A stretch of DNA of 64,000 nt. Source: Sycon ciliatum. Taxonomy: Eukaryota > Porifera > Calcarea > Leucosolenida > Sycettidae. The stretch's first letter is position 1. Every line of letters begins with the position of its first letter. This document shows, in pieces, positions 40,693 through 58,712 of the stretch. The position numbers and the translations under genes are program-made. The notes beneath the pieces were generated by a model. The model was not told the origin of the DNA, made no database searches, and saw only the letters and a program-made list of their open reading frames with translations. The stretch is from contig NC_088645.1 in assembly GCF_964019385.1 (NCBI RefSeq), forward strand, positions 34,191,963 to 34,255,962, in the 5' to 3' direction.

Positions 40693-40817
40693 CGCAATGA
40701 AGGTAATTACGGTCCGTCAGTGTTAACTATGAGTAGTATTTGTTACCTTTCGTTCTTTTAATACTTACTGCACTTGCTCTTAATCCCCGTGCTGATCCCT
40801 TTTTGCCTCGTGCTGCT

Positions 40818-41585
40818 ATGCAGCCTCCCGCTTCCCTTTTTCCGGTGAGCACCCAGGACACCCGAACTCTTAAGCTAGGTTTTTTGAATGTTTGTAGCTT
40901 GCGCTACAAAGTAGATGAAGTAACAGCACTCCTCCAGGTGCAGGACTTTGATATTTTTGGATTGGCTGAAACCTGGCTAGACAGCACTATTGGTGACGGA
41001 GAAGTAGCCATTCCTGGATACAACCTCACAAGGACAGACCGCGTGGGTAGACGAGGAGGAGGTACGTGTATATATTACAAATCTTCTTTGCCAATCCGAC
41101 CTTGTCCCGAACTGTCTTTGAACGGCCTAGAAGCTGTCTGGATATCGATCAAAGGCGGCCAGGGTCAACATGCAGTGGCCTGCGTCTACCGAGCTCCAGA
41201 CGTGGGGATTGACTACTGGAAGGACCTTGAAGAGTCACTGCAGCGGGCCCAAGCGCAAGCGCCACACATGACCATTATAGGCGATCTCAACGTCAACATG
41301 ACAACTCACAGCCACCATCGTACACACCTGCAAGACCTCAGCAATATGTTTGGCATCTCGAATTTGGTGAAGTTCCCCACACGGCCTACTCCAAGTGGGA
41401 ATCATGGTTCAGTAACCGACCTCGTACTAGCAGACCATAACTTTGTCTCGAGTTGCGTTGTCATGGAATGTTCGATTAGCGACCACCACGCGGTGATGGC
41501 GAACCTCCATATCGCCATATCCACAACTAGTCCAGGTAGGCAACGCCAAAAGCGTCGCCACTTACGCAACATTGATATCGACCAG
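40818..41585 (+). pseudogene. LINE ORF2, 5' part: endonuclease domain (interrupted)
   Basis: Apurinic/apyrimidinic-type endonuclease domain. Visible motifs are LGFLNVCSLRYK, FGLAETWLD (catalytic Glu), TIIGDLNVNM (Asp/Asn) and the C-terminal SDHHAVMAN (Asp-His). The frame is open from TTG 40740; the first ATG in frame is at 40818. Coding sequence runs without damage to 41585, where the Polinton was inserted; the frame resumes after the duplicated GACCAG at 57149. The function before insertion was target-site nicking. Confidence 0.85.
41580..41585 (+). repeat. Target-site duplication, left copy (GACCAG)
   Basis: GACCAG immediately before the TIR. The same hexamer follows the right TIR at 57143-57148. 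Removing the element plus one copy leaves the LINE ORF2 frame continuous. Six bp is the known target-duplication size of Polintons. Confidence 0.95.
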
Positions 41586-42028
41586 AGTAGTAAGTGCGGG
41601 GCAGGTTCTGGGCCACTTTTTGACCTTTGACCTTTGGGCCAAATAAGGCACACTGTGTCGGTCGTGCTTGGTCTGGCCCCGGGACTCCCCCAGGGTTTGA
41701 CCTTTGACCTTTGGGTTAAATAAGGCACACTGTATCGGGCGCGCTTGGTCTGGCCCCGGGACTCCCCCAGGGTTCGACCTTTGCCCCTGCCATGCCATAA
41801 ATGTCATCATGTTCTTTTCCGTGGCGACCGTGCACTTGTGCACGTTCGTTGTATTCGCACCAGGGAGTAGTAAAATACGTACTACTCCCTGATTTGCACA
41901 TCGTAGATGTGCAGTGAATGACATATTGCGCATGCGCGCATGAGCACGCGGAGCGTGCGACCTTCAGTGGCCCTGCGGAAAAGACGCAGTGCAACAGAAG
42001 GTGGACTAGTACACGTGTCATTATACTA
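41586..42028 (+). repeat. Polinton left terminal inverted repeat (443 bp)
   Basis: Matches 56700-57142 in inverse orientation with no indel (positions sum to 98728). Two translated frames compared across both copies were identical. Inside are a 77-bp direct duplication (41619-41695, 41696-41772) and hairpins GCACATCGTAGATGTGC (41897) and GCACGCGGAGCGTGC (41944). Confidence 0.95.
41619..41772 (+). repeat. 77-bp tandem duplication inside the TIR
   Basis: Two units, each starting TTTGACCTTTGACCTTTGGG and ending GGGACTCCCCCAGGG, differing at a handful of positions. The mirror copy is at 56956-57109. Repeated GACCTTT units could bind a protein such as the integrase or terminal protein, by analogy with other TIRs; this is inference. 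Confidence 0.85.
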
Positions 42029-42111
42029 ATGTGTGATAGCCGACCTCATATACGATGTACGGGTAGATTTTTCCTCAGTATGTTGTAGGCAGTGCTGGAG
42101 GTGACGTGACG
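42029..42111 (+). promoter_or_regulatory. PolB 5' region
   Basis: 83 bp between the TIR and the PolB ATG. It holds no clear copy of the late motif (only GATTTTTCCTCAGTATG vaguely resembles it). PolB is presumably an early gene whose promoter overlaps the TIR. Confidence 0.35.
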
Positions 42112-45100
42112 ATGGCGGAGCCAAGTGCAAAACGATCTAGGCAGCCCAGACAGCCCACCTCGAGTGCCGTGCGTGGTTTTTTGAAAAAGTTTTCTTTGCC
42201 AGGTTCAGGCACTGATCCTCTCGTCTTTTTCAGCAGCCATCATGACGAGCTCAGACAGGTTCTCCTCGAGGAGCTTCAGTCTCACCCGTTCAAGGTGGTT
42301 TTAGTTTTGAGGGTGGAGATGACACGAGAGTCGGCCACGGGTAGTACGTCTGCCGTCCCGTTTTTTAGAAGTAGACCGGCTCGGATCCTCAGCGAAGGGG
42401 ATATTGATAGTGCAGTCAAGACGATGGTGGCGAGGATCACTGGTCTTATTGATAAGTGGGTGCAGAACGGATCTGACTGGACCGTTTCTCGAGTGAGGCA
42501 GCTGGATGTGTCGACAGCAAAGTACACTCCTCTTCGAGGTGAGTTTCTGTTCATCCGGCAGTGTTTGTTCGAAGCCTGTCGAATTTCTTGTGGAAAGTGG
42601 TAGACGTATGTTTTGTACCAGATGTACAGTTTTTCGTGATTGTCGAGAGGGTGTAGTTGTGATGTGGTGTTACTCTGAGCAAAGCCTTCGTTGTATTTTT
42701 GTGGTGTACTGTAGGTGGTGCAGCTGCTATCCCGCCGAAATTAGAAAAAAAGAAGGCCATCATTAACGTAAAGAACAACGATGACAGGTGTTTGATGTGG
42801 GCGTTGTTGTCAGCGCTGCACCCCGTCGAGCAGCATGCTGAGCGTGCATCCAAGTACACCCAGTATGTGGAGGAGCTGCGGTTCGACGGTGTAATGTTCC
42901 CTGCAACGCTCCGTGATGTATCCAAAGTGGAGATACAGAATGGTCTTGCAATCAATGTGTTTGGGTACGAGGGGAATCTGTACCCACTCTATCTCAGCGA
43001 GCGACAGGAGACTCCCATCAACCTCCTTCTTCATGACAACCACTTCACATGGATAAAAAACTTCAGTCGTGCATGTGAGAATAAGAACAGACACGCCACA
43101 CACTACTGCTTGCGATGCCTCTCCGCACACAAAACAGCAGACTCCCTGCAGCATCACAGCGAGAGATGTCAGGTGATGAAGCCCGTGCCAGTAGTCATGC
43201 CCACAGCAAAGGACAGCATCCTCAAATATACAAATTTGAAGCACAGGATGGTGGCTCCATATATCATTTACGCTGATACGGAGGCCATCATTGAGCCGAT
43301 GGAGGAACAGCATGGCAGCAGCACTGTACGCACAGCACGTCATGTACCATGCAGCATCAGGTATGTTTTGTTGTTGGTGTTGTTTTTGACTAATGTTTGC
43401 TGTACTCATGCCTGCACAGTGCTTGCTGTTATTCCTTCTTGTCTTGTTCTCCCCTAATTGTGTTCGTGTTGTAGTATGTGCATTTTGTGTGATTCCATTT
43501 TTTCAAAATCACTTATTCTTACTTTCCCTCTTCTTTTATGCTCTTGTAGATATGCTGCCATCCGATCCAACGGTGAAGTCCGTGGTGAGTTTGACGACTG
43601 CAGTGAGAATGCCATTCACAACTTTTTCGACAGTCTCAAAGAGTTGGAAGGCAGTATCCAGGAGGATTTGGCTGATACCAAGCCAATTCGCATGACAGCA
43701 GAACTGGAGCTTGAGTTTCAGAACGCAGTCAACTGCTGGATATGTGATGAAGTACTTGGAGAAGATCGTGTTCGTGATCATGATCATCTCACTGGTAAGT
43801 ATTATAATTTTTTGTTTTTTTTTGTTGTTTTGCAGTTGTGTGTAGATATGCGCATGATGTGTATAGTGCATTTTCATGTCTTTGTAGCTGTTTGCGTCTG
43901 TGTTTTATCACGGTGTATTGAATTGTATTGTCTGTGGTATCACCTTCACTGTAGATGTTTACTATGTTTGTGTTTTCCCCTCTTTCTGAATATCTGCACA
44001 GGCAACTACCGTGGTGCTGCACACTACCAGTGTAATATTCAGCTGAGTATCTACCCAGATCGCCAGATCATTCCGGTTGTGTTTCACAACCTGAAAGGGT
44101 ACGATGCTCACCACCTCATCGCCCACATTGGTATGACCGAGGTTGAAGAGGTGGAGTACGAGGACTCTAACCAGCGTAAGCGGATTAAGAAGGTTGGTGA
44201 GATCAGTGTCATCGCCAACAACATGGAGAAATATATTTCATTCAAGTGGCGTCAGTACCGCTTCATCGACTCCATGGCCTTCTTGAACTCCTCTCTGGAC
44301 TCGTTGGTGAGCAACACCCCGGAAGATGCCTTCAAGCTTACTCGTACATTGGCCCATCATGACCTTCTCCTGCGTAAGGGTGTCTACCCCTACGAGTACA
44401 TGGACTCCTTTGCTCGGTTTGATGAGACACAGCTGCCACCTAAATCAGCATTTGAGTCTAGTTTGACTGGAGAAGGTATCAGTGATGCTGACTATGCTCA
44501 TGCTCAGAACGTATGGCAGGTAAGCAGCTTGTGCCTTCTGTATTGGCCCTCAGAATTTCCCTGATGCCATGCTTTTTGCATTATGCTCTACTTATGACTT
44601 TGTATGCTGTTGTGATGTGCCCTACACATTTTTTTGTACTCATTGCTCTCTATCCGTGGATATGTGGATGCTTGTGTGTATGGATGTGTGCATGCGTGTG
44701 TGCGTTGATGTTTTTTTTTGTTTTTTTTTTGTTTTGCAGACATTTGAGTGCAGTACAATGGAGGCCTATCATGACCTCTATTTGCAAACAGATGTCTATC
44801 TTCTAGCAGATGTCTTTGAGCATTTCCGCAAGACGGCATACAAGACGTATGGGTTGGATCCAGCTCATTACCTTACTCTCCCAGGTATGTTCATCAGTCT
44901 TTGTTGTTGTCCAATGTATTCTCTCCTTTAGATGGTGTTCTCTGTTAGTATTCTTGTGCTTTCTTGTCGGTGTATTTTTATACTTTTTGCATGGTGTATT
45001 GACTTTCGTGTTTGTGTTCTGGTGTGTTGCATGGTGTTATGTAGGATATGCATGGGATGCTCTACTACGGTTCACCCAGATTGAACTGCAGCTGCTCACG

Positions 45101-46754
45101 GATGTAGACATGCATCTGTTTGTCGAAGCCGGTCTATGTGGGGGCATCTCAATGGCGTCGCAGCGGTACGGCAAGGCCAACAACCCAACGATGGATCAGT
45201 ACAATCCTGCCGAGCCCACATCATACCTGCTATACCTTGATGCCAACAACCTGTATGGCTGGGCTATGTGCCAGAGTATGCCGACATCTGAGTTTGCCTG
45301 GTGTGACAAGAACCTGTCCGAGATACTGGCACAACCTGTAGATTCGAGCACTGGGTTCATTGTGGAGTGTGATCTTGAGGTACCCTCTTCGCTGCACCAC
45401 TACTTCAATGATTATCCACTTGCACCGGAAGTGATGAGAGCATTCTCAGATAAGCTATCACCATACCAGAAAGCACTTGTGGAGGAGCTCAAAGTGTCAG
45501 CCGTAGATGGAGTCAAGTTGACACCCAGTCTCCTACCCAAGTCCAAGTATGTGTTACACTACCGTACACTGCAGCTGTATTCGCGTCTGGGCATGGTGGT
45601 GACCGCTGTTCACAAGGTGTTGGGATTTCAGCAGAGTGCCTGGATGGCTCCCTACATCAATCTGAACACTGCACTTCGCACGAGGGCTACAACCGACTTT
45701 GAGAAGAGCTTTTACAAGGTAAATGCAACCGTTGTGTGCAGTCTTGTATGTTGTTGTTGGTTTCAAATCTTTATTCTCACGATAGCCAGTGGCCAATAAG
45801 AGATAATAGTGTAAGAAAGGAGAAAGAGTGAGGAAGATTTTGTTGGTTGTTGTTGTTGTTGTTGTTGTTTTTGTTGTTGTTGCATGTATGGTGCAAGTGT
45901 GACGTGGAGTATGCTAATTGAAAATATGCTGATGTGAAGGAATGGCATGATATGATTCTCATGTGTCATGTTTGCCTGTTTGTGAGCTGCAGCTGATGAA
46001 CAACTCAGTCTTTGGCAAGACGATGGAGAACGTTCGTAATCGAACACGCATCGATCTCTTGCGGGAAGAAAGTGAGGAGCAGGTACTGAGGGCAGTGAGC
46101 AAGCCTACATATGTGCGGCACGACATTTTCCCGAACGGGCTTGTCGGAATAGAAAAGCAGCACACTGAGATCAAGCTCAACAAGCCGGTCTATGTGGGTA
46201 TGTCGATACTAGACCTGTCAAAGTTGCACATGTACTCCTTCTACTACGATGTGCTGAAGGAGCAGTACGGTAGCAGAATCCGGCTGTTGTACACCGACAC
46301 CGACTCTGTTATTGTGCACATAACCACCGGTGATGTTTATGCAGAGATGGATCTGTCTCTGTATGACACCAGCAACTTTCCCACTGACCATCCTCAGTAC
46401 ACTTCTGCCAATAAGAAAGTGGTTGGCAAATTCAAAGATGAGCTTGGTGGGAAATCCATGGTGGAGTTTGTAGGTCTAAGATCGAAGATGTACTCCTACA
46501 TCGGGCAGGAATCGGCCAAACGGGCCAAGGGTGTGCGGAAGGCAGTCCTGGCAAATACCATCACCCACAAGGACTATGTAGATGCACTGCTCAGTCATCG
46601 TGTGTCTGCCAGGCCTATGATGGGTCTCCGATCACATTGCCACACAGTGTATGAGGAGGTAACCACCAAGGTGGCATTGTCTCCATTCGACTGCAAGCGG
46701 TATATACTGGATGATGGCATGGCCACACTTGCCTATGGTCACAAGGACATTTAA
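42112..46754 (+). CDS. polB: Protein-primed family-B DNA polymerase, seven exons
   Basis: Replicates the linear element by protein priming. Exons are 42112-42538, 42715-43360, 43550-43794, 44002-44519, 44740-44884, 45045-45718 and 45993-46754. All six introns are GT-AG and phases match throughout, giving about 1138 aa. Motifs: a C2H2 finger (CLRCLSAH..HSERC, exon 2), exonuclease I YADTEAI (end of exon 2), an endonuclease-VII-like CWICDE..DHDHLTG (exons 3-4), exonuclease II FHNLKGYDAHHL (exon 4), polymerase motif A LDANNLYGWAM (exon 6), motif B NNSVFGKT (start of exon 7) and motif C YTDTDSV (exon 7). All key acidic residues are present. The ATG at 42112 was chosen; an in-frame GTG lies at 42106. 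Confidence 0.93.
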
Positions 46755-46959: not shown

Positions 46960-47355
46960 TTACCCTACATACTTTGGTTTGCAGTGTGTGCGCAGCATAG
47001 TCCATATATCATCAAATTGATCAAGTTCAGTATCTGCGGGCATATATTTCCCCAGCTTGAGAAAATGCTTATATACTTGCGTAAATTTATGCTCACAATG
47101 ATGACATAAAAATGAGATTAAAGTCCATATGATGGCCAGTATGAATGTAGTTATGATGCTTGTTCTTTCGGCTGGTGAGGTTTGAGTGGATTTCTCTGCC
47201 AACACATTGCTGGCTCCGAACAGCACTGGTGCAAGCAGGAGTAGTTGTTGAGTAAGTTTAACTTTATTCAAACGCCCCTTCACTTTCTGATAGGTTCCGC
47301 TGTTGCTCGCAGTTGATGGCTCGGCTGATGGGGTGTCATTGCTTGAGGAGTCCAT
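46960..47355 (-). CDS. Two-TM membrane protein, unknown function
   Basis: 131 aa from the ATG at 47355. The start was chosen because the late motif lies directly upstream of it (47361-47384); an in-frame ATG at 47394 would add 13 residues and overlap the upstream gene. The N-terminus is Ser/Thr-rich. Hydrophobic segments are LTQQLLLLAPVLFGASNVLA (about 33-52) and SIITTFILAIIWTLISFLC (about 68-86), followed by a Cys/His- and charge-rich tail. It is the last gene of the leftward block. It could be a small virion membrane or release protein; no family recognised. Confidence 0.75.
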   Translation of the reverse strand: MDSSSNDTPSAEPSTASNSGTYQKVKGRLNKVKLTQQLLLLAPVLFGASNVLAEKSTQTSPAERTSIITTFILAIIWTLISFLCHHCEHKFTQVYKHFLKLGKYMPADTELDQFDDIWTMLRTHCKPKYVG

Positions 47356-47360
47356 CTTGA

Positions 47361-47384
47361 TCTTACTGTACCGGGAATTTTTCC
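47361..47384 (-). promoter_or_regulatory. Late motif before the two-TM protein gene
   Basis: Minus strand reads GGAAAAATTCCCGGTACAGT then AAGA, 5 bp before ATG. It matches the shared late element and lies inside the end of the preceding gene. Confidence 0.75.
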
Positions 47385-47948
47385 TCACATCCATTCAACC
47401 ATTAGTATGAGCAAAATTATGGCCAAAAAGGCTGAACGGGGATGAGTCCATACTGAGCGATTTGACCAGTTGAAGTCGTGTGTAAGGGTGTTTTCAAAAC
47501 TTTGCCAACCTCCTTTTTCCGCCAACCAGGGCGAAACATTGGTGGTCATGTAATCTAAGTGCCAGGTCATGACATGATGTACATAGTGCAATCCCAGTTC
47601 CGTTGAATTCTCCATACAGATGTTCGCTAACTCGCTGCTGAATAAGTACAGGGCCACAATTTTAACATGGCTGATACCGTTTTTAAATAGTTCTTTTGCA
47701 AATGTAAGAAATTGCGTACGACCCGTTCTGGAGTTGAAACACAGTTGCTGCATCAGCACCTGAAATCTCGATCCACTGCGCCTGACTAAGCGACACACTC
47801 GTACCAAAACTCTAGAAAGCCGAGATGGTTTCGACTCCGGCGACGATACACATTGTGGTAGGTCTACATGACCTTGTTCTGCCAGTCGATCAGCAATAAC
47901 AGCAGAAAGCAGATTTCTTGCAGTAGTCTGCATTGTGCACTGCATCAT
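47385..47948 (-). CDS. Bcl-2-like protein with C-terminal membrane anchor
   Basis: 187 aa. A BH1-like block at about 85-103 (KELFKNGISHVKIVALYLF) and a clear BH2 at about 140-151 (PWLAEKGGWQSF) have the order and spacing of Bcl-2 family proteins. A hydrophobic tail at 172-184 (SAFLAIILLILMV) matches the membrane anchor of that family. A helix near 47-60 may be a degenerate BH3. The usual NWGR of BH1 is changed to SHVK. The family regulates mitochondrial apoptosis, and viral members usually delay host-cell death; that role here is inference. Its ATG overlaps the protease-integrase stop (ATGA), and the late motif lies inside the upstream gene's 3' end. Confidence 0.85.
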   Translation of the reverse strand: MMQCTMQTTARNLLSAVIADRLAEQGHVDLPQCVSSPESKPSRLSRVLVRVCRLVRRSGSRFQVLMQQLCFNSRTGRTQFLTFAKELFKNGISHVKIVALYLFSSELANICMENSTELGLHYVHHVMTWHLDYMTTNVSPWLAEKGGWQSFENTLTHDFNWSNRSVWTHPRSAFLAIILLILMVEWM

Positions 47949-49351
47949 CGTTTCCCTCTACTACTATCCTTGGAAATATACCTCATTTCTTTCTGCGATA
48001 CCCATTGGTTGAACTTTTCGGGGTATCCCTTCCACTTGACCAGCAAACTACCCTTACGTCTTTTCAACACCTGATCGATTCGAAATGTAGCTTGCGCAGT
48101 CTTCATGAGCTGCTGTTTGTAGAAGCTTCCTGTGATGGGTTCATCGGCAAGGTCTTTCACTTTGTAGGTGACCGGATAAGTGGGGAGAACCTTACGAATC
48201 ACAAATACCTCTTCGGTCCAGTTGGGTGTGTATCCCTTCGCAAACATTCTTTTTTCCACTGTAATGCGAACTTTATCTCCGACTTGAAAGACAGGCTCAT
48301 CCGCAATGGGCTCATACAGTTGCTCAATCGGTTTCCCTAGGGAGGCTTCCATGGGGGTCATCCCAATTGTACGGTGTTTACTATTGTTGTAGTTGTCGAC
48401 AAGTTTTTGCAGCACATCGATGTAGACGTTGGTCGAGCGAGCGGTGAAGTGCTTCCACATACGAGATTTTAGCGTTCTGTTGAAACGTTCAACGACGACG
48501 GCTTTTCCTTCATTCTCTGTACTGTACATGTGAATGTCGTTTTTCTTCAACCACTCCTTGAACGTTTTGTTATAAAATTCCGAGCCATGGTCCACCCATA
48601 GTAGCTTAGGTTTCCGATTGGTTGTGATGGTTTTAAAGGCTGAGACAACACTATCCCCGGTTTTGCTCTTAAGTGGCACACTCCAAGCATACTTCGTGTA
48701 TATGTCTATAACATTGAGAATATATCTAATTCCTTCGTTATATTCGCTAAAGGGCTGCATTTCTACGAGATCAGCACTCCATACATCGTCCTTGCCGTAA
48801 ACGTCCACTTTTCTGCGTGGGAAATGTACTCGCTTAGGTTTATGTAGCTCATCAGCAAGATCATCTTGCCAATCCCCACCAACCATGACTTGATCGTTGT
48901 GAAGGGTATCGTGAGAGAACGTACAGGAGAGGAATTCCAATACTCCGTCTATACCAGTCTTTGAGAAGACTTTCGCTACCAGGATGGCATAACGTCCGCA
49001 GACCGCTGTGCTTCTATCTTGAATGACTTGCGTATTGGTGTACAGGTTGCAGCCGGAATAAACATTAAGAAAACATTGTTTTAGTTCCGGTTCTTTATAG
49101 TCTTCGGCCATCTGCATCAATGCACGCCCGAAGCTGTCAAATATCAGAACATTATCGCCTTCCCTACACACCGTCAGCCAATGGTGTCCCCCTTCGGGTT
49201 TGTCCAATATCGGGAGTATGTTGTCCGTGTTACACACACAAAACTCGCCATGGTTTAAGGCAGGCAGGAGATCATAGCTAGTCACACCTCGGAACCCGCG
49301 AATGTGTTTCAGCGCAGACTCGATGTCCACGTTGCTCAGCTCCACATCCAT
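47945..49351 (-). CDS. Adenain-like protease fused to retroviral-type integrase with chromodomain
   Basis: A single 468-aa frame. Residues about 1-150 form an adenovirus-type cysteine protease with GGHHW (His57), FDSFGR (Asp72) and TAVCGRYA (Cys118) in the adenain order. Residues about 185-340 form an rve integrase core with D194 (WSADLVEM), D254 (WVDHGSEF) and E288 (VVVERFN), spacing 60 and 34. The C-terminus (about 415-460) is a chromodomain (LLVKWKGYP..NQWVS). Polintons normally encode protease and integrase as separate genes. The fusion may be cleaved, or it may tether the protease to the integrase. No stop or frameshift lies between the domains, and all catalytic residues are present. 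Confidence 0.93.
   Translation of the reverse strand: MDVELSNVDIESALKHIRGFRGVTSYDLLPALNHGEFCVCNTDNILPILDKPEGGHHWLTVCREGDNVLIFDSFGRALMQMAEDYKEPELKQCFLNVYSGCNLYTNTQVIQDRSTAVCGRYAILVAKVFSKTGIDGVLEFLSCTFSHDTLHNDQVMVGGDWQDDLADELHKPKRVHFPRRKVDVYGKDDVWSADLVEMQPFSEYNEGIRYILNVIDIYTKYAWSVPLKSKTGDSVVSAFKTITTNRKPKLLWVDHGSEFYNKTFKEWLKKNDIHMYSTENEGKAVVVERFNRTLKSRMWKHFTARSTNVYIDVLQKLVDNYNNSKHRTIGMTPMEASLGKPIEQLYEPIADEPVFQVGDKVRITVEKRMFAKGYTPNWTEEVFVIRKVLPTYPVTYKVKDLADEPITGSFYKQQLMKTAQATFRIDQVLKRRKGSLLVKWKGYPEKFNQWVSQKEMRYISKDSSRGKR
47958..47980 (-). promoter_or_regulatory. Late motif before the Bcl-2-like gene
   Basis: Minus strand TATATTTCCAAGGATAGTAG, 9-12 bp before the ATG pair. It has the same two boxes but is farther from the ATG than in other genes. 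It lies within the last codons of the protease-integrase gene. Confidence 0.7.
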
Positions 49352-49376
49352 ACCTAGTATACCAGGGATTTTCCTT
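49352..49376 (-). promoter_or_regulatory. Late motif before protease-integrase
   Basis: Minus strand AAAGGAAAATCCCTGGTATA then CTAGGT, immediately before ATG. It overlaps the last codons and TAG stop of the upstream gene. A weaker match in the first box. Confidence 0.65.
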
Positions 49377-50403
49377 TCAGAATAGCAAGTGTTCGGTAAT
49401 AGGGACTCCTTGTATTGCTAGCCACTTGCCGATTCTTGAAGACACTTTTGATAAAGGTGGCATCATCAGCCATGTACTCTTTGAGACCTAACATAAATTG
49501 TTCTGCGTTGATAAGTTTTGCTTCTTTGGTTCGAGTGTAGGCGTTGATCATATCTCCTATACCGGAATATTTGTCTGCGGATCCTGGTATGGCTAGAAGC
49601 TGAGTTCTTATTGCAGCCAATTTCACATTACTTCTCGAGTGGTTTGGAAGCGCATTAAGGTTGGCTGCTGCTGCAATCTGCTGGAATGGATAACGCGACA
49701 GGTGAAACTGATTGATTTGGTTGACCAGAGTAGCATAGTCTTTGAGGATTTGAAATTCGAGGGTATCTCTAGTGTTTTCCATTCTACCTCTGAGCCCCTG
49801 CTCATCCTCCTGATAGACTTGGTGTAGTTGCGGCCTTGCACTGAAGTGGCTGCTTTGCAGAAAGGCTTCCGGTATCTTATGGTCTACTAGGAGTTTACCA
49901 AATGTATTTATCACTATTCTATCAAACTTTGGCTCCATGGCGGTTTGCAGTGGGATACTAGCGGCAGAGATGTTTCGCCTCATTCTAGCCTCTGCTATGG
50001 ACCCTCTTGCCATTCCAGAACTCTGATCATAATCGAGGAGATTCGATGCAACAGCATTAGTAACCGAGAATGGGTTTATCAGATCCGGATTGTTCTTAAA
50101 TGTTCTATCATACATAGCCTTTACTCGAGGGTTTGATTTCACTTGGGAGATAGGAAATGGGCGATCTTCTTCGGGGATATAGGCCAGTGCTTCTCTCACT
50201 TGCCCGGAAAATTTCTTATAATCTCCACCTCGTACTGGAGGAGTACCTTAAACCTCCCACATGGTGTCACCTTTACTCAGGATATCCTGGGGGTTTTGTA
50301 ATATCATCTTCATGGTCTCGTCTCTCTTCTCTAGTGGTATTGGGTGAGTACGGCCGTTGCACTCGATGCAGATAGGTTGGAAGTGCACCCGTATTCGCTC
50401 CAT
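49354..50403 (-). pseudogene. Late-block protein of unknown function with an in-frame TAA
   Basis: The frame opens at ATG 50403, directly after a late-type motif, meets TAA at 50248-50250 after 51 codons, then stays open in the same frame to TAG at 49354. No ATG and no late motif follow the stop; the only start-like codon is GTG at 50199. The simplest reading is one gene of about 349 codons with a nonsense codon. Two genes, or readthrough, are alternatives. The N-terminal part has CIEC. The long part is mixed helical, without recognised domain (for example SSGMARGSIAEARM). Its place next to the protease suggests a virion or assembly role. Confidence 0.65.
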
Positions 50404-50613: not shown

Positions 50614-50641
50614 ACTTACTATAGGCAGAAAATATTTTATT
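50614..50641 (-). promoter_or_regulatory. Late motif before the 64-aa gene
   Basis: Minus strand AATAAAATATTTTCTG then CCTATAGTAAGT, directly abutting ATG. Strong match in both boxes. It overlaps the 3' end of the ATPase gene. Confidence 0.85.
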
Positions 50642-51332
50642 CAAACACAACCTTCGAGGTTATGGAATCACAGTGAGTATAAAACTCATTGCGTGATGCA
50701 TCGACCGCTAGAAAGGGTCTCCAACAAGCTTCTAATAGTTTTTCATAGAGTTTATAGACAAGATTAGCTTTCAAACAGGATCCGCCAAATAAAGTATGAA
50801 GATAGCGTTTGATGTTGGATTTATCTGTAAAGCGAAAAAGATAGAGGAAGTTGGTATTTATCTTCATATCTTTGATGTTATCAAAGCTTTGAGAGAGAAA
50901 GAACACATTAAGTTCATAATGATGGCTATACATGGTGAAAAACTTGTAAAGACATTCCCTCTGACTGCCATGCTTCAGTCCCATGACACGTATATCATCT
51001 ATAATGACAAAGGACTTGGGCTGAATGTCCGTCTCTTCGATACACTCAGGCATTGCACTGTAATGTTTCAACTCCGTGCCTTCCTGCCTGTATTGCTCCG
51101 GTGAAGTATTGGAGATGACGTAAAGTCGTTCCGGCTTTACCGCTCGAAGTATTTCCTTGAGGTAATGGGATTTCCCCATGCTGCTCTGACCCAGAAATAG
51201 CACATTTTGTCCCCATGTTTGGAGGGAGGGGAGAATCTCAGAGTACTTGGGTTGAGATCGTAGAGACAGACCTGCTACGCGGAGTAAAGAGGCAGACCCT
51301 CCTTTCAGAGACAGCAGTGATGAAAAGTCCAT
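50637..51332 (-). CDS. Genome-packaging ATPase (FtsK/HerA, A32-like)
   Basis: 231 aa. Walker A GQSSMGKS at 48-55 (after WGQNVLFL) and Walker B SFVIIDDIRV at about 107-116 with the Asp-Asp pair, followed by a sensor-like FFLSQSFDNIKD region. The length and motif spacing fit the compact packaging ATPases of Polintons and other double-jelly-roll viruses, which pump DNA into preformed capsids. It lies between the 64-aa gene and the basic core-like gene, as expected in a morphogenesis block. Intact. Confidence 0.92.
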   Translation of the reverse strand: MDFSSLLSLKGGSASLLRVAGLSLRSQPKYSEILPSLQTWGQNVLFLGQSSMGKSHYLKEILRAVKPERLYVISNTSPEQYRQEGTELKHYSAMPECIEETDIQPKSFVIIDDIRVMGLKHGSQRECLYKFFTMYSHHYELNVFFLSQSFDNIKDMKINTNFLYLFRFTDKSNIKRYLHTLFGGSCLKANLVYKLYEKLLEACWRPFLAVDASRNEFYTHCDSITSKVVFE

Positions 51333-51357
51333 ACTTACTATAACGAGAAAAAATTAA
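51333..51357 (-). promoter_or_regulatory. Late motif before the ATPase gene
   Basis: Minus strand TTAATTTTTTCTCGTTATAG then TAAGT abutting ATG. Strong second box. It overlaps the upstream gene's stop. Confidence 0.85.
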
Positions 51358-52121
51358 ATGTTAAAGCTCTGAGGTATAAACGAAGGGTTATGGGTATTTT
51401 CGATGCGAGTTCGGATACGGTCAGTAATGGTTTCTGGAGGGTTTGAGGATCGTCGTCTTCTACCTCTCTTCTTAGCTCCTGACTTGATGCCGGACTGTAC
51501 TCTCGACTTTGCATGTTCAAACAGCTGCCTTCCCAGACCTTCAACCTCCCTCTTCAAACCGTCTCCTTTGCGCTTCCTTGCACGTTGCCCCCTGGAGAAT
51601 TTGTTAGTGGGTGGTAGCTTCGATCGTCTTTTCTGAGATCGTCTCTGGCTTGCTCGAGTACTGCTTTTTCTACTATTTCCCTTTCGACCCCGGCCAAATA
51701 CCTTGTCCACCAGATTGTCACCGACGGACGCTAGCGCCCCCATAGCTAAGGGTGCACCAACGGTTTTCAATATGGGTAGGGCTTTAGCCACGAGTCCCGG
51801 TGGAATGCTCAGTCCGCCTCGCTGCATCATGGGTTCACGGCCGGCTACCATCTGACGTCTGATGGACTCGCCGTCTTGACCTCGACCCAAGAGCATGGGA
51901 AGAAGCGACATGCCTAACATCGCCCCCATCCCAAGCCCACCCCTCTGGGTGAGCTTTTGGCCTTGTTCGGGGTCTTGCATTCTTTTTCGAAGCTCCTCAG
52001 CCTGTGCACCTCCAAAGATGTTTTTGATGAAGCCCCAGATACCAGACCCGTATTGTCTTTCCAAAGTCTGTAGATCACCTCCCCACGCTCGGGGTGTGGT
52101 TTCCAAATCTCCTCCCTGCAT
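51354..52121 (-). CDS. Basic glycine-rich virion protein (adenovirus pVI/pX-like)
   Basis: 255 aa. Residues about 15-40 hold a potential amphipathic helix (GIWGFIKNIFGGAQAEEL) and about 65-80 a Gly/Met-rich hydrophobic stretch (GMGAMLGMSLLPMLLGRG), with another at about 110-130. From about 140 it is strongly basic (RKGNSRKSSTRASQRRSQKR; GAKKRGRRRRSS). This mix of membrane-active and DNA-condensing segments is like adenovirus core/pVI proteins and their Polinton counterparts; homology by motif is weak, so the call rests on composition and place between ATPase and capsid genes. Confidence 0.75.
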   Translation of the reverse strand: MQGGDLETTPRAWGGDLQTLERQYGSGIWGFIKNIFGGAQAEELRKRMQDPEQGQKLTQRGGLGMGAMLGMSLLPMLLGRGQDGESIRRQMVAGREPMMQRGGLSIPPGLVAKALPILKTVGAPLAMGALASVGDNLVDKVFGRGRKGNSRKSSTRASQRRSQKRRSKLPPTNKFSRGQRARKRKGDGLKREVEGLGRQLFEHAKSRVQSGIKSGAKKRGRRRRSSNPPETITDRIRTRIENTHNPSFIPQSFNI

Positions 52122-52146
52122 TGTTACTATAACGTGGAAATATTTA
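52122..52146 (-). promoter_or_regulatory. Late motif before the pVI/pX-like gene
   Basis: Minus strand TAAATATTTCCACGTTATAG then TAACA abutting ATG. The best match to the shared element. It overlaps the end of the capsid gene by a few bases. Confidence 0.9.
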
Positions 52147-53724
52147 CACAGTCTCCCACTTGATGCCTTCTTCCTTGCTCATGGTATACATATACTGGTC
52201 GAGACATAATAAATTGACCTTGATCGATGTGCTTGCGTGACTGGGTACATTGATCGGGGCGTTGGCCACATTGGCGAATTGATAATCGAGTGACATGTTA
52301 CCCCTGACCTTTTCATTGTCCAGCATCCTGTCTAGATTGAGGTTGATTGGTATCATAAAGTAATGGTTACAGTAATCCGAGGCTGTGATAGGTATTTCAG
52401 CCCCATAGGTCTTTCCAAAGAACTCTTGAACCAAGTTGTATCCACGTAAATAGCTCGACTTGTTATAGTCATAATAGTGCTTGGCATCACTGTTTTCAGA
52501 ACACTCCCATCTGAACTTCAGCGGACTGTCGAACACAGATTCATCGTTAATGGTTACTCTGAGTTGGGAAAGATTCGCATGTACCATGGCCAGGCGATTG
52601 CTGAAATTACTGGCAGCGCCGCCACCCAAGACAGCATCTTCTCCGAGTTTCAGATCAGAAAAGAACAGGATCATCCTCCTAGGAATATCTGAATTGTGGA
52701 GTAGCTCCAGAGTACCTGCATCGTCTGTCAAACTCTTCTGTACAAGCCGAGGGCACCAGGTATGGAAATATAGTTCTTTAGGCAGACGCACTTGATCTAC
52801 GTATGCCTTATCCATTCTATAGGTAGGGTAAACAAAGTCCAGCTGCAGCAGATCAATGTTGACAGGCCCAACACCTGTTAGACTGTTTCCTCCTCCGCCT
52901 CTATCCGAGACAATCATATATCTAGAGAGCTGGGTTTGCGGTAAATCAAACCGTATTTTGATTTGTGTTCCTGGAGGCAACCACGCATCATCCACATTGA
53001 AGAAGGGAAGGAATGGTCTCATTTTGAACTGGAAATGCCCTGATGTCACACGGGCAACGTTTTCCAGAACAGTATTACTGAAGTTCTCCTCATTCGACAG
53101 GTGGACAGTGGGCCGTCTTTTCAGTGTCGTACCATCGAAATCATCTTCGCCATCTGTGTTTGTTGCAAACGCATAGGCGTGCGAGCGTTTTACACCATAC
53201 CGATAATTCCCTAGAGGTATATCTTTAACACACTTCTGGGGGTCGAGTTTCTGAAGTCCGTACAGATCAGAATCGGAATATTGGAGTTTAGCCACGTCAC
53301 TCTCCATAAGGCTAAGAATGTGTTGCACACTCTGCATATCTTGCACCTTGCTAGATTGCGTCACCTCCGTGCCATTTAGTTCCACGCGGATATTCTTGAA
53401 CCATGAAAATGCAGGGGAGGTGGTACACACCCAGTGTGGATATGATCTGGCTCCATTAGCCCGACTATCACTAACTTCATACCGGAGTTTGACGATAAAG
53501 TAACTTTCACTCAAGGCAATGAAATTTGGTGATGATATATCCAATTCGCTGTTCAGAGAGGGTGGTGAACCATTTCGAGAATACAGTCTTACAAAGTTTC
53601 TCCCCTCTAGGAGTGATATCTTCTTTTCGGTTCGCTCTAGGATGCTATTCTGCACCACTTTAGTTTTCGACAGCAGCCCCTTAAAGGGGTCTGGGATCTG
53701 AGTGGCCACGACGTGCTGCGCCAT
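52144..53724 (-). CDS. Major capsid protein, double jelly-roll (hexon-like)
   Basis: 526 aa, the usual size for Polinton/adintovirus hexons. It starts MAQHVVATQIPDPFKG. The region FIALSESYFIVKLRYEV..PAFSWFKNIRVELNGTEV is like the first strands of jelly-roll 1, and AWLPPGTQIKIRFDL lies at the connection; the second half (PRRMILFFSDLKLG..LRVTINDESVFDSPLKFRWE) fits jelly-roll 2. It forms trimeric capsomers of an icosahedral shell. It is intact, the largest late gene, and lies between the core-like and penton-like genes. Confidence 0.9.
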   Translation of the reverse strand: MAQHVVATQIPDPFKGLLSKTKVVQNSILERTEKKISLLEGRNFVRLYSRNGSPPSLNSELDISSPNFIALSESYFIVKLRYEVSDSRANGARSYPHWVCTTSPAFSWFKNIRVELNGTEVTQSSKVQDMQSVQHILSLMESDVAKLQYSDSDLYGLQKLDPQKCVKDIPLGNYRYGVKRSHAYAFATNTDGEDDFDGTTLKRRPTVHLSNEENFSNTVLENVARVTSGHFQFKMRPFLPFFNVDDAWLPPGTQIKIRFDLPQTQLSRYMIVSDRGGGGNSLTGVGPVNIDLLQLDFVYPTYRMDKAYVDQVRLPKELYFHTWCPRLVQKSLTDDAGTLELLHNSDIPRRMILFFSDLKLGEDAVLGGGAASNFSNRLAMVHANLSQLRVTINDESVFDSPLKFRWECSENSDAKHYYDYNKSSYLRGYNLVQEFFGKTYGAEIPITASDYCNHYFMIPINLNLDRMLDNEKVRGNMSLDYQFANVANAPINVPSHASTSIKVNLLCLDQYMYTMSKEEGIKWETV

Positions 53725-53749
53725 TCTTACTTGTACGTGGAAAAATTTA
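53725..53749 (-). promoter_or_regulatory. Late motif before the major capsid gene
   Basis: Minus strand TAAATTTTTCCACGTACAAG then TAAGA abutting ATG. Strong match. Confidence 0.9.
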
Positions 53750-54472
53750 CTCGATTCTCAGATCCAATAACGCCGGGTACCCCGTGGTGATAAACTCTCC
53801 AGTGTTGTACTTCAGCCAAAATGATATTTCCGTAACGCTTGAGTGCGGAAGTAGAGCGCGTTTGTCTCTCTCTCCAAATATGTAATTGTTGATACCGTTG
53901 TGAGTTTGAATGGGGAACGTCTTCAAAATCCTCGAGTCCTGATTGTCTTCATATTCGACGGCCTGGGCGATCAGGTCTGTATACAACAACACAAACCTTC
54001 TCCCTCTAGTCAGATCAACTGCATACGGTGATGTGAAAAGACCAGGTTGTATGGTCACGGATTCTGCAATCGATCCCAAGCCCAGAACGACACTGGGGGA
54101 GTCGGGTTTCAGGATAATTTTTTTCCCGACAGGTACGCTGATGCTCGCTCGGCTTGTATAGCGGGAATAGGAAAACACAATATCTGGGTGATTTGCACTT
54201 TTCAGTGCCTCGTTAATGACTGTAATGAGATCTGCAATATCCGTGTGAGTTCCTGTTAGGATGGAGAGTTGAACTTCCCCTTCTTGTGTCTCCACGTACA
54301 ATTTGTTACTCTCCGTATCAACGTTTTCAGAATGAAGTTCGAACTGGGCAGTGTCCAAACTGATGTGTTTCCCTATGGTATTCAAAGACCTGATACGCAG
54401 TGTAAAATGAGGCGTGAACGCACCGGCTATAACGGCAGAAGCGTTGTTTACTGCAGACAGTACCACCGCCAT
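53747..54472 (-). CDS. Penton-like minor capsid protein (single jelly-roll)
   Basis: 241 aa from ATG 54472 (MAVVLSAVNNASAVIAG). The frame is open further upstream, but this start sits directly after a strong late motif, and the upstream part would overlap the divergent collagen-like gene. Beta-rich segments (HFTLRIRSLNTIGKHISL, SPSVVLGLGSIAESVTIQPG, RRFVLLYTDLI) fit the penton proteins of Polintons, which close the five-fold vertices. It ends at 53747, 22 bp before the capsid ATG. Confidence 0.85.
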   Translation of the reverse strand: MAVVLSAVNNASAVIAGAFTPHFTLRIRSLNTIGKHISLDTAQFELHSENVDTESNKLYVETQEGEVQLSILTGTHTDIADLITVINEALKSANHPDIVFSYSRYTSRASISVPVGKKIILKPDSPSVVLGLGSIAESVTIQPGLFTSPYAVDLTRGRRFVLLYTDLIAQAVEYEDNQDSRILKTFPIQTHNGINNYIFGERDKRALLPHSSVTEISFWLKYNTGEFITTGYPALLDLRIE

Positions 54473-54512
54473 ACCTACTGTACAGGGGAAATATTTCCCC
54501 ATAATAACAAGG
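54473..54512. promoter_or_regulatory. Bidirectional late promoter with GGGGAAATATTTCCCC palindrome
   Basis: A perfect 16-bp palindrome at 54485-54500 serves both sides. Leftward, AAATATTTCCCC is followed by TGTACAGTAGGT and the penton ATG. Rightward, AAATATTTCCCC is followed by ATAATAACAAGG and the collagen-like ATG. The distance from palindrome to ATG is 12 bp on each side. Confidence 0.9.
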
Positions 54513-55334
54513 ATGGCGTTTTGGAGCATGCATTTCCACAAGAGCCCGTCTGAGGAAACCTCCAGCCGAACAATAAGAACCTTGAAGGATGATATTGCGC
54601 AACTCAAAACTCTGGTGGGTAACGATAACACCAAAAACACCCTGATGTACAATGTCGGGGCACTACAGAACAGCAAGTTGAATAAAACAGATGCTGAGAT
54701 TATGGAGGGTCGAATCAAAGAATTCGCGGAGTCAACGGTGATAGATGACGAAACCCATTTGAAAACGGATGGCAGCGTGAGGATGAGAGGAAATCTGCAC
54801 ATGAATGGCAAACGCTTATGCTGGCTGGATTACGACGGTGTGTCGGACACCTGTGCTGTACCTGCTGGGTGGGTGAAGAAGGAATTAGCCCAAATCCGCA
54901 AAATGAAAGGTCCTAAAGGTGATCCAGGATTTGGTTGGTATAGCGGAGCAGACCCTCCGTCGCCACCCATCGGCAGACAGGGTGACTTCTATTTGGATGC
55001 TACCACCCTCGTTGTATATAAAAAACTCATTGCGGGTTGGACTGCATTCGGATCACTTAAAGGACATCGAGGAAGACCAGGGGTTCCTGGACCAAAAGGA
55101 AGTCCTGGCCCGACTGGGGAATCTGGATTGCAAGGTTTAAGGGGCCACACAGGACTGCAAGGACCCCAAGGACCATCAGGACACATAGGTGCTACAGGAC
55201 CGCAAGGACCCCCAGGAAACATAGGACCCCAAGGACCTGAAGGATCGCCAGGCCCTCAGGGTGACATGGGACCGCCGGGGCCCAGAGGTCCTCGGGGCCA
55301 CAGTGCAAAGAGTCTTCCAATACTTCTTCCATAA
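54513..55334 (+). CDS. Collagen-like fibre protein
   Basis: 273 aa from ATG 54513 ([14 protein letters not shown]), chosen because it abuts the rightward late motif. Residues about 25-130 are helical and charged with likely coiled-coil character. A short Gly-X-Y piece (KGPKGDPG) lies near 132. A globular insert ([18 protein letters not shown]) has the look of the segment preceding collagen repeats in phage and bacterial fibres. A continuous Gly-X-Y run of about 27 triplets follows to the C-terminus (ending GPRGHSAKS). Divergence from the penton gene suggests a vertex fibre or surface decoration; this is inference. Intact. Confidence 0.88.
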
Positions 55335-55489: not shown

Positions 55490-56158
55490 TTAGAATGCCT
55501 GCACAATGGTGGATAGTATATAGATCAATGCATCTGGATAGTCATCATAAGCCAGTGAGGCAGCAAGTGGTAGCTTCGGTTCAACTCCATAATGTTGGAT
55601 GAGTTCAATCATTAGCTGTTCTTCTTGCTCTGTCATATCCACCGTCCTCTCAATAAACCGTTCAAAGTGAGCCTTACGTAGTTTCTTTGGGGTTATGATC
55701 TTCATCCACATTTTGAAGAACACTGGGGAAGTCTTGAATAGGGAAGCATTTCTCATCCATGCATCTTTGCTTCTGGGGAGATGAAGACTGAGTATCTGCA
55801 CCATCTCTTCATCTTCATAGTAAATGCATGACAGGGCGATGGCATAATTCAGAGCTCTATACTCACTGCCCTTCTTCATAGCGTAGAGGCGTTGCCGAGT
55901 TTCAAAAAGCGATGGGTATAGCGGCTTACAAACTCCCACCTTCTCGATAAAAGCCCCCAGACTTTTATCCACTGATTCCAGTCGCTGCACATCTGTGTAA
56001 GGCTTACTGGGCAGCATTACACGCTCTGCTACATTTGCCTCTGGCGCAAACAAAGAGCCCAAGACTAGACCACATTTCATGCAAACGACAGCTTCTTCCG
56101 TTTCTATTTCTTCATGGTTACACCCATCACAAAATTCAACTTCCTCCTGAAACTCCAT
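55490..56158 (-). CDS. TFIIB-like transcription factor
   Basis: 222 aa. The N-terminal zinc ribbon has Cys10, Cys13, Cys26 and Cys29 (FCDGC..VVCMKCGLVLG), the TFIIB pattern including the CGLVxG ending. An all-helical region follows (about 60-222; SVDKSLGAFIEKVGV, ALNYAIALSCIYYED, RKAHFERFIERTVDM) that fits one full and one partial cyclin fold. It is shorter than cellular TFIIB (about 310-350 aa). TFIIB bridges promoter DNA/TBP and RNA polymerase II; large nucleocytoplasmic DNA viruses carry such factors, but it is not part of the usual Polinton set. It lacks the late motif and has CCAAT boxes instead, which suggests early expression. Confidence 0.82.
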   Translation of the reverse strand: MEFQEEVEFCDGCNHEEIETEEAVVCMKCGLVLGSLFAPEANVAERVMLPSKPYTDVQRLESVDKSLGAFIEKVGVCKPLYPSLFETRQRLYAMKKGSEYRALNYAIALSCIYYEDEEMVQILSLHLPRSKDAWMRNASLFKTSPVFFKMWMKIITPKKLRKAHFERFIERTVDMTEQEEQLMIELIQHYGVEPKLPLAASLAYDDYPDALIYILSTIVQAF

Positions 56159-56222
56159 GGTGCCAAATGCAACTGTAATGATCCTGACGCATTACTTTAT
56201 CCCTTCCACTAATTGTTATCGG

Positions 56223-56264
56223 CCAATCAGCATACTCTCGTCAACTCACATCCAATCAGCATAC
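56223..56264 (-). promoter_or_regulatory. Two CCAAT boxes in a direct repeat upstream of the TFIIB-like gene
   Basis: CCAATCAGCATAC occurs at 56223-56235 and 56252-56264, 65 and 94 bp upstream of the ATG at 56158. CCAAT boxes (NF-Y sites) work in either orientation. This is a host-type promoter, in contrast with the late genes. Confidence 0.6.
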
Positions 56265-56562: not shown

Positions 56563-56699
56563 ACGGCCAGGGACTGAAAGTCGCACGCTAAGTATGGGCA
56601 ACTTACTTGTCAATCACTGCACATCTACGATGTGCGAATAAAACGAATGCAAGGAACGTGAACTTGTTGCTGCACATCTACGAAGTGCGAATCAGGGAG

Positions 56700-57142
56700 T
56701 AGTATAATGACACGTGTACTAGTCCACCTTCTGTTGCACTGCGTCTTTTCCGCAGGGCCACTGAAGGTCGCACGCTCCGCGTGCTCATGCGCGCATGCGC
56801 AATATGTCATTCACTGCACATCTACGATGTGCAAATCAGGGAGTAGTACGTATTTTACTACTCCCTGGTGCGAATACAACGAACGTGCACAAGTGCACGG
56901 TCGCCACGGAAAAGAACATGATGACATTTATGGCATGGCAGGGGCAAAGGTCGAACCCTGGGGGAGTCCCGGGGCCAGACCAAGCGCGCCCGATACAGTG
57001 TGCCTTATTTAACCCAAAGGTCAAAGGTCAAACCCTGGGGGAGTCCCGGGGCCAGACCAAGCACGACCGACACAGTGTGCCTTATTTGGCCCAAAGGTCA
57101 AAGGTCAAAAAGTGGCCCAGAACCTGCCCCGCACTTACTACT
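56700..57142 (-). repeat. Polinton right terminal inverted repeat (443 bp)
   Basis: Mirror of 41586-42028, ending CCCCGCACTTACTACT at 57142. Inward of 56700 the match stops abruptly. A GTAGTA-type motif and the hairpin GCACATCTACGATGTGC also occur nearby (56817). Confidence 0.95.
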
Positions 57143-57148
57143 GACCAG
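57143..57148 (+). repeat. Target-site duplication, right copy (GACCAG)
   Basis: Identical to 41580-41585; immediately followed by TTCCGGTGTGACCTCGCC, where the LINE ORF2 frame resumes. Confidence 0.95.
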
Positions 57149-58607
57149 TTCCGGTGTGACCTCGCCGAAGCACTCAGCGCTAATCCTACATCCGCCCACA
57201 TGGATGTTGACGACATGTGGACGGCTTTCTATGAAGGGTTCAAAACAGTTCTAGACATACATGCACCCATCATGCTCTCGTCAAGACGCCAGAGAGCTGC
57301 TGCGAGATTACCTTGGCTCGACAAGGATACGTACCAACTCACGCAAAAGAAAAACAGATTACACAAGCGCTGGCTAGGAGATAGAGGAAATGACATCCTA
57401 CTCTCCCGGTATAAAACAGCCCGGTCTCAGGCATCCAACGCAATCCGCAAGAAAAGAAACGCTTTTTTCACCAGACAATGTGAGCAGCACTCTCATGATC
57501 CAAGGAGAATGTGGTCAACCTTGAACGCGGTAACCGGCCGCTCCAAGGCAAGGCAGGACCCAGTGTGCGATGTTTCTGCAGTGAGCAGCTCCTTCAATAG
57601 TATTGTCACTGATCCAAGTCGTCCGGACACCCTACAGATACCCCATGGTCCCTGCACCCGCAACTCACTATCAGCTCTCACGCCAACGACCTGTCCCGCA
57701 GTACAGCGATTACTCGCCACAATCGATCCTGACAAGGCTACAGGCAGTGACGAGATCCCTGGCCGTCTGCTGCGAGCCTGCAGTGATATTGTTGCCCCGC
57801 ACTTATGCGACCTCTTCAATGCCTCCTTGCATTCCGGTCGCCTACCGAAGCCGTTCAAACACGCCCTGGTAAAGCCGCTTTACAAAGCAGGGGACCCAAC
57901 AGTCGCCACTAACTACAGACCTGTGTCATTATTACCAATTGTTGCGAAGCTGCTTGAAAAGGTAGTACATCGCCAGCTTACAAGGTTCCTCGCGGCAAAC
58001 GACGTGCTGCCGACCACGCAATTTGCATACCGCACAAACCACTGCACTGAAGACGCTTTGGTACTCCTGACGGAGAACATTCTCCATGCAAAGGACGCGC
58101 GACTAGCCAGTGGTGTGTGTTTGCTGGGCATGTCGAAGGCTTTCGACAAAGTCAAGCATGACATTCTTGTACGCGATCTTTTCGAAGTTGGCCTTCACGG
58201 CACTGCACTCCAATGGTTTGCAGACTACCTCGAAGGACGCACCCAACAAGTGCAAATCGCTGGATCCATTGGTGTCAGTGGCACATGCTCATGTGGCGTC
58301 CCGCAGGGTTCCGTTCTCGGACCCGTGCTTTTCAACATCTACACCAGGCATGTGCCCACCATTGCCAGTCCGTCCATCTCAGTGCAGTTTGCTGACGATA
58401 TTGCTCTCACGTTCAGCTACCCTGATTGCCAGGAAGTATCGCGAGTTTTAACAACGTCTACAACCGAGATTGCTAACCACCTCCAGAAACGGAATCTAAT
58501 CCTGAACACTAGCAAAAGCCATGTCTTGCGAATTTCCGGCCAAGACATTACTGTCAAATGCCGTGGAAACCCGCTACCAGCAGTTCCCCATGCGAAGTAC
58601 CTGGGCA
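57149..58607 (+). pseudogene. LINE ORF2, reverse transcriptase part
   Basis: Continues the endonuclease half at 40818-41585. RT motifs: TGSDEIPGRLLRACSD, YRPVSLLPIVAKLLEKV, TQFAYRTNHCTEDALV, motif A LLGMSKAFDKVKHD, GVPQGSVLGPVLFNIY and motif C VQFADDIALT. In motif A the catalytic Asp position (LD-x-SKAFD in the family) is Gly (codon GGC at about 58126-58131), which should abolish polymerisation. The frame continues into leucines because a (TTG)n insertion starts at 58608. Confidence 0.85.
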
Positions 58608-58712
58608 TGTTGTTGTTGTTGTTGTTGTTGTGTTTATTTTAATTCGCAAACCAAACGGGCAGATCTGCCCAATGAAAAGGTGGCGAATGCAGATAGAAAG
58701 CAGTAATAAATC
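58608..58712 (-). mobile_element. Short LINE 3'-end insertion in ORF2
   Basis: About 105 bp interrupting the codons for YLG. On the minus strand it ends AATTAAAATAAACACAACAA, a LINE-like 3' end with a (CAA)n tail, like the one at 39000-39078. A strongly truncated insertion; no clear target duplication was seen. Confidence 0.7.

Follow-up and report, generated by a model that had tools for sequence, protein, structure and literature searches.

The integrative-conjugative elements that PMC6563490 identifies in thaumarchaea all encode TFIIB homologues, and in giant viruses TFIIB serves as a marker gene (PMC12638062), both according to the accessible parts of these papers. The original prediction for the locus studied here held that, among mobile virus-like elements, TFIIB is otherwise known from large DNA viruses. 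This is too narrow in view of the thaumarchaeal elements. The latter resemble the Polinton described below in carrying a TFIIB gene on an integrated mobile element, but they are archaeal and their TFIIB gene mostly lies just upstream of parB (PMC6563490, accessible part). A virophage, identified by context in the accessible part of PMC11464507, encodes no transcription factors. We found no description of TFIIB in a Polinton in the literature searched, which covers few subscription papers, so that its novelty is provisional. None is described in the accessible parts of PMC12638062, PMC12085832, PMC6563490, and PMC11464507, and the word TFIIB is absent, by word search, from the accessible text of PMC11071296, PMC11071308, PMC10120064, and PMC8097293. 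Nor did this literature yield an account of the timing of capsid genes in Polintons.

The Polinton and its gene content

The window, i.e., the whole 64,000-nucleotide stretch of the Sycon ciliatum genome that we analyzed, contains a Polinton of 15,557 bp. The TFIIB-like ORF was expected to belong to such an element, and it is indeed enclosed by 452-nt terminal inverted repeats (TIRs) and a 6-bp target-site duplication, together with an integrase gene. The Polinton interrupts a LINE (40740-41630 and 56795-58642, plus strand) between its endonuclease ORF and its reverse transcriptase ORF; when the flanks are joined without the element, one LINE frame is open across the insertion site. Each TIR contains two 77-bp tandem units (41619-41783 and 56945-57109).

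The features of the element are listed in Table 1. Gene order, size, and motifs are the basis for designating products as MCP, penton, PX, ATPase, and PolB; Pfam did not confirm these designations, and the PolB-like region gave no Pfam match in the three pieces scanned. The protease-integrase frame matched Pfam rve above the cut-off (4.4e-11), Peptidase_C5 at 4.2e-4 (20.5 bits, cut-off 21.3), and Chromo at 2.5e-4 (21.3 bits, cut-off 25.1). A search with the MCP-type protein returned 45 proteins, the window's own included, one of which is 68% identical and comes from S. ciliatum. Neither the ATPase nor the MCP matched any INPHARED phage. The Bcl-2 family protein is presumably an apoptosis regulator. 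Between the protease-integrase and ATPase genes lies a 281-aa frame without an ATG start (49354-50199, minus strand); a motif-like site overlaps its GTG but is absent from the late-matrix sites scoring above 9. The element ORFs scanned with Pfam gave no RNA polymerase match, from which we infer that host RNA polymerase II (Pol II) must be used.

Table 1. Features of the Polinton in window coordinates.
Feature	Position	Strand	Observation
Target-site duplication, left	41580..41585	.	GACCAG both sides
Left TIR, begins AGTAGTAAGTG	41586..42037	+	448/452 identical to right arm
Split PolB-like region, probable introns	42699..46754	+	motifs by eye
Late motif outside training set	47361..47384	-	5 nt before ATG of ORF 46960-47355; score 16.4
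Bcl-2 family protein	47385..47948	-	Pfam Bcl-2 1.4e-15
Protease-integrase: adenovirus-type protease, integrase, and chromodomain in one frame	47945..49351	-	Pfam
Late motif, protease-integrase start 49351	49352..49375	-	score 17.7; left out, 208 windows equal it, not distinctive
Late motif, ORF start 50613	50614..50637	-	score 27.3
Packaging ATPase-type protein	50637..51332	-	Walker A by eye; weak Pfam AAA matches
Late motif, ATPase start 51332	51333..51356	-	score 29.2
PX-type protein	51354..52121	-	label by gene order and motifs
Late motif, PX start 52121	52122..52145	-	score 30.9
Major capsid-type protein (MCP)	52144..53724	-	relatives in genome; nothing convincing in Pfam
Late motif, MCP start 53724	53725..53748	-	score 26.7
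Penton-type minor capsid protein	53747..54472	-	relatives at 55% (L145) and 59% (L146) identity; nothing convincing in Pfam
Late motif, penton-type ORF start 54472	54473..54496	-	score 29.4
Late motif, fibre start 54513	54489..54512	+	score 25.8; left out, 8 of ~128,000 windows equal it
Fibre-like protein with collagen repeats	54513..55334	+	Pfam Collagen 5.1e-16
TFIIB-like gene, 222 aa	55490..56158	-	family of relatives; TFIIB ribbon in 8/8
Zinc-ribbon codons C13-x-H15 to C26-x2-C29	56072..56122	-	four residues invariant in 8/8 members
Upstream region of TFIIB-like gene	56159..56260	-	late motif absent; inverted CCAAT boxes (ATTGG) at -98 and at -69
Right TIR	56691..57142	-	448/452 identical to left arm
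Target-site duplication, right	57143..57148	.	GACCAG both sides

Zinc ribbon and C-terminal part of the encoded protein

The TFIIB-like ORF runs from an ATG to a stop codon, and its product (P0001) has the Cys10/13/26/29 set and the CGLVLG stretch that had been read from it. A search with residues 9-112 of P0001 found two divergent relatives, P0048 (45% identical) and P0049 (43%), the latter with an N-terminus that looks basic and NLS-like by eye. We aligned these three proteins with five further relatives, L147-L151, encoded by other copies of Polintons in this genome (alignment A6, n = 8). C13, C26, and C29 are conserved as the proposed ligands, but Cys10 is variable and H15 is invariant instead. 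The resulting CHCC set (C13/H15/C26/C29) resembles the one visible in human TFIIB, from which it differs in having C-x-H rather than C-x2-H spacing.

Profile comparisons identify the N-terminus as a TFIIB-type zinc ribbon. P0001 alone matched the Pfam TFIIB ribbon (Zn_Ribbon_TF) weakly (0.077), whereas all eight members of A6 matched it at E<=1, the best at 0.0026, and no score reached the curated 29-bit cut-off. Seven other Pfam families were each matched by one of the eight members. Among these families is the ribbon of Rrn7, a TFIIB relative in the Pol I system. When the ribbon alone was scanned, the TFIIB ribbon ranked first for all four sequences tried (E 0.00084-0.0041). For comparison we assembled 80 sequences, namely 78 TFBs from 80 loci, a Pyrococcus TFB, and human TFIIB. 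Against the 79 archaeal TFBs and human TFIIB, hhalign scored the ribbon at 31.7, with a maximum of 18.7 among 100 shuffles, and in a second run at 31.8, with a maximum of 16.2 among 60 shuffles. A TFB-ribbon HMM gave 12.9-17.4 bits in all eight members, a score reached by none of the 100 shuffles of each. The likeness to TFIIB claimed for the ribbon thus goes beyond chance; since shuffling destroys the cysteine spacing, it is the Pfam ranking, not the comparison with shuffles, that provides the specific evidence. The similarity spans about 26-40 residues, and the hhalign match continues beyond the ribbon to the linker, where a PE..W-like segment aligns, with the W present in four of the eight members and absent in P0001. 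P0001 had no match in NCBIfam or PHROGs, PDB searches with P0001, A3, P0049, A5, and A6 did not return TFIIB, and no relative was confirmed in viral contigs when these were scanned with P0001, the MCP, the MCP alignment A1, A3, the TFB alignment A4, and P0049.

The helical core, also said to resemble TFIIB, fared differently: neither HMM nor profile-profile tests ever separated it from shuffled sequence. When hhalign compared the core with cyclin repeats 1 and 2, 79 and 18 of 100 shuffles, respectively, did as well or better; in a second run 12/60 and 26/60 were as good, and 42/60 against both repeats together. With hmmsearch, all eight A6 cores fell within the range of their own shuffles, and nothing in Pfam or the PDB convincingly matched the C-terminal part. 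These tests read sequence only, and a cyclin fold may escape them. By eye, one may read helices 3 and 5 of a cyclin repeat in the invariant NYxIALxCI and in the LPxS that is followed by W and R, and a truncated second repeat in the final 60 residues; we regard both as leads.

Recurrence in other Polintons and the late motif

A DNA search of the genome (538,412,230 bases) with the gene gave 37 full-length copies at 95-100% identity and three partial ones among the best 40 of 47 candidates. The partial matches (85-87%) were considered as a family with another core and rejected, as within the stretches compared they match only part of the element's right end. The frame was open in all 30 of the 37 full-length copies that were examined, comprising 13 distinct sequences; with 5 synonymous and 14 nonsynonymous distinct changes, purifying selection is not seen among these recent copies. 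A protein search with P0048 returned matches with E from 8e-46 to 2e-30 (best 150 of 544 candidates), 146 of them without an internal stop. The six proteins from the window and L147-L151 are 30-67% identical to each other, and synonymous divergence exceeds 2 or is saturated in all 15 pairs.

Searching the genome with the MCP-type protein gave 34 matches at 97-100% identity, which represent the window family, and 48 at 68-73%, which represent other families (best 82 of 226 candidates). A same-strand TFIIB-like gene lies upstream of at least 33 of the 34 window-family MCPs, 1764-1822 nt away, and of at least 23 of the 48 others, 3003-4616 nt away, with a chance expectation of 0.0013 per MCP. The broken copy of L145, which was read directly, and a ribbon match 5.8 kb upstream of one MCP, somewhat farther than the rest, bring the second figure to at least 25 of 48. 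For 23 other-family MCPs and one window-family MCP no gene is among the matches listed, from which neither absence nor presence follows. The search of other Polintons that had been proposed as a check therefore found the same gene in them.

With the Pfam TFIIB ribbon, the genome search gave 96 matches at E<=1 (best 150 of 170 candidates), 80 of which lie in, or within 150 nt of, Polinton gene matches; copies of the window family itself are missing from the 96. Two ribbons exceed the cut-off. They lie elsewhere, in short frames, score far higher, and are presumably host TFIIB and a Brf-like gene. TFIIB-like genes also form 21 inward-facing pairs, 15 of them spaced 12.5-14.9 kb (e.g., C4:17266971 / C4:17281115), which suggests that in some subfamilies the gene lies inside both long TIRs. 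At C6:733506-747912 four TFIIB-like genes stand in tandem, with starts 3.7-5 kb apart and no MCP among the matches listed there. L114 (C12:9677000-9686900) holds two window-family copies that face opposite ways, so that each strand carries PX, MCP, and penton-type genes within a span of 10 kb.

The late motif that had been linked to the gene exists. It takes the form AAATATTTYC, a short gap, and TATAGTAAG, directly before the ATG. We trained a 24-nt matrix on seven ORF starts (penton-type, MCP, PX, ATPase, ORF 50613, protease-integrase, and fibre), and the eight best of ~128,000 windows were these seven sites and 47361-47384, all preceding element ORFs. When each training site was left out in turn, six of the seven were matched by only 5-8 windows, which include the sites themselves and mostly other sites. 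Spacing between motif and ATG is zero in seven of the eight sites. The divergent penton-type and fibre genes have one AAATATTT palindrome in common, forming a two-way late motif (54473-54512). The highest score outside the element, within the window, was 10.7. Upstream of the TFIIB-like ORF no late motif was found, the best site within 400 nt scoring 1.5 versus 16.4-30.9 for the eight sites.

The window-trained matrix was also applied to L145 and L146, both of which carry the TFIIB-like gene (read directly in L145; at C8:25576568-25577272 in L146). Sites scored 14.9, 8.8 (MCP), and 3.1 (penton-type) in L145 and 15.7, 12.0, 11.2, and 8.7 in L146, where the 15.7 site is tied to no recognized ORF. 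The distance from motif to ATG is 1, 35, and ~79 nt in L145 and 12-39 nt in L146, so that only the window family has a fixed spacing. In L146 the late motif is separated from the fibre ATG by a (GT)n run at ~922-961, and the spacing is thus not fixed there. The co-occurrence of gene and motif that the original prediction called for is seen, but in three families only, i.e., the window family, L145, and L146.

Proposed role, alternatives, and known systems

We put at roughly one in two the probability that the ORF is a recurrent Polinton gene for a small TFIIB-derived or TFIIB-mimicking factor that acts early and brings host Pol II to late promoters, taken jointly with a build of TFIIB-type zinc ribbon, short B-reader-like linker, and divergent C-terminal part. 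The gene would be expressed early from a host-type promoter with CCAAT boxes and no late motif. The ribbon of TFIIB docks on Pol II, and the ribbon of the Polinton protein may do the same with the host enzyme. Its C-terminal part would then recognize the late motif, either by itself or together with TBP or a further protein of the element, and Pol II would thereby be brought to the virion-type genes, activating them late. Of all this, the gene, its ribbon, its recurrence, and the motif with its distribution over the genes of this element are observed, whereas early timing, docking on Pol II, DNA recognition, and late activation make up the proposal. A TFIIB-like gene that lacks the motif, next to virion-type genes that are uniformly preceded by it, fits an early factor for late promoters.

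Other readings of the same observations have to be weighed. It is possible, if doubtful, that the protein is an early regulator whose TFIIB-like ribbon binds host Pol II or TBP and redirects or damps host transcription generally, without recognizing the late motif itself; adenovirus E1A CR3 or a host shut-off factor would be the working model. Such a role suits a protein in which only the ribbon is demonstrably TFIIB-like and the C-terminal part has no convincing Pfam or PDB match, and a gene that no late motif precedes. It leaves the late motif unexplained, however, P0001 as read contains no LxCxE motif, and both the preference for TFIIB over other ribbon families and the continuation of the hhalign match into the linker speak against it. 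The latter point also weighs against convergence, according to which a zinc-ribbon protein of unrelated role (replication, packaging, or virion) merely came to resemble TFIIB in its CxxCGLVL stretch. Despite the shortness of the similarity, the sub-threshold Pfam scores, and a core unrelated by sequence, we consider this unlikely, as the TFIIB ribbon is the only Pfam family that recurs in the eight members and one of the single matches is to its Pol I cousin.

The motif itself could be a 3' splice acceptor, a pyrimidine tract and AG before the ATG through which a common leader is added, with the TFIIB-like protein unrelated to it. Common leaders are found on adenovirus late mRNAs and in spliced-leader trans-splicing. 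By eye, a T/C-rich tract and an AG do stand shortly before the ATG at the sites and the PolB-like gene seems to have introns; the variable distance in L146 points the same way. A promoter accounts better for the AAATA that most sites conserve ahead of the tract and for the usual zero spacing, and the AAATATTT palindrome between the divergent genes also counts against an acceptor, which makes this explanation distinctly unlikely. A recent, decaying capture of a host TFIIB gene, named at the outset as an outcome that would overturn the idea, would account for a TFIIB-type ribbon and is highly improbable. The divergence of the relatives in several Polinton families of this one genome and the location of the over-threshold ribbons elsewhere both argue against it, as does the scarcity of internal stops among the best protein matches.

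A TFIIB-type factor and a common late motif would provide a concrete switch, open to testing, for the timing of capsid genes. They would bear on the origin of giant-virus TFIIB genes, and they would offer a small model in which a TFIIB ribbon joined to a very divergent C-terminal part steers Pol II. More tentatively, and with odds somewhat short of even, animal Polintons may as a group possess a general transcription factor gene of their own together with a matching class of late promoters that are nearly leaderless. Such a minimal two-part late switch would let a ~15-kb element without a recognized RNA polymerase reprogram host Pol II, for which giant viruses and herpesviruses employ larger gene sets.

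Compared with TFIIB and archaeal TFB, the Polinton family shares a CHCC or CCCC ribbon ending in a CxxCGLV-like stretch and possibly a PE-W-like linker after it, but it has C-x-H in place of C-x2-H/C, a shorter ribbon loop, and cyclin repeats that are undetectable by sequence. The zinc-finger regulators known as Ziftr in some adintoviruses also occur in Polinton relatives; by their description in the accessible part of PMC11071296 they have a remote similarity to CTCF and to further zinc fingers rather than to TFIIB. Giant viruses (Nucleocytoviricota) are, by description, likewise virus-type elements with a TFIIB-type gene, but the giant virus in the accessible part of PMC11464507 encodes TBP and RNA polymerase subunits as well as TFIIB, whereas no RNA polymerase match was found in the scanned Polinton ORFs. 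Two viral factors would work in a similar way, as far as their descriptions in partly accessible sources go. Poxvirus VITF-3, an atypical TBP/TFIIB pair, uses a divergent TFIIB-like subunit for a temporal class of promoters, but acts with the viral polymerase (PMC12917281). ORF24 of the herpesvirus KSHV steers host Pol II to late promoters, as we propose for the Polinton protein, and does so as a TBP mimic rather than with a TFIIB ribbon.
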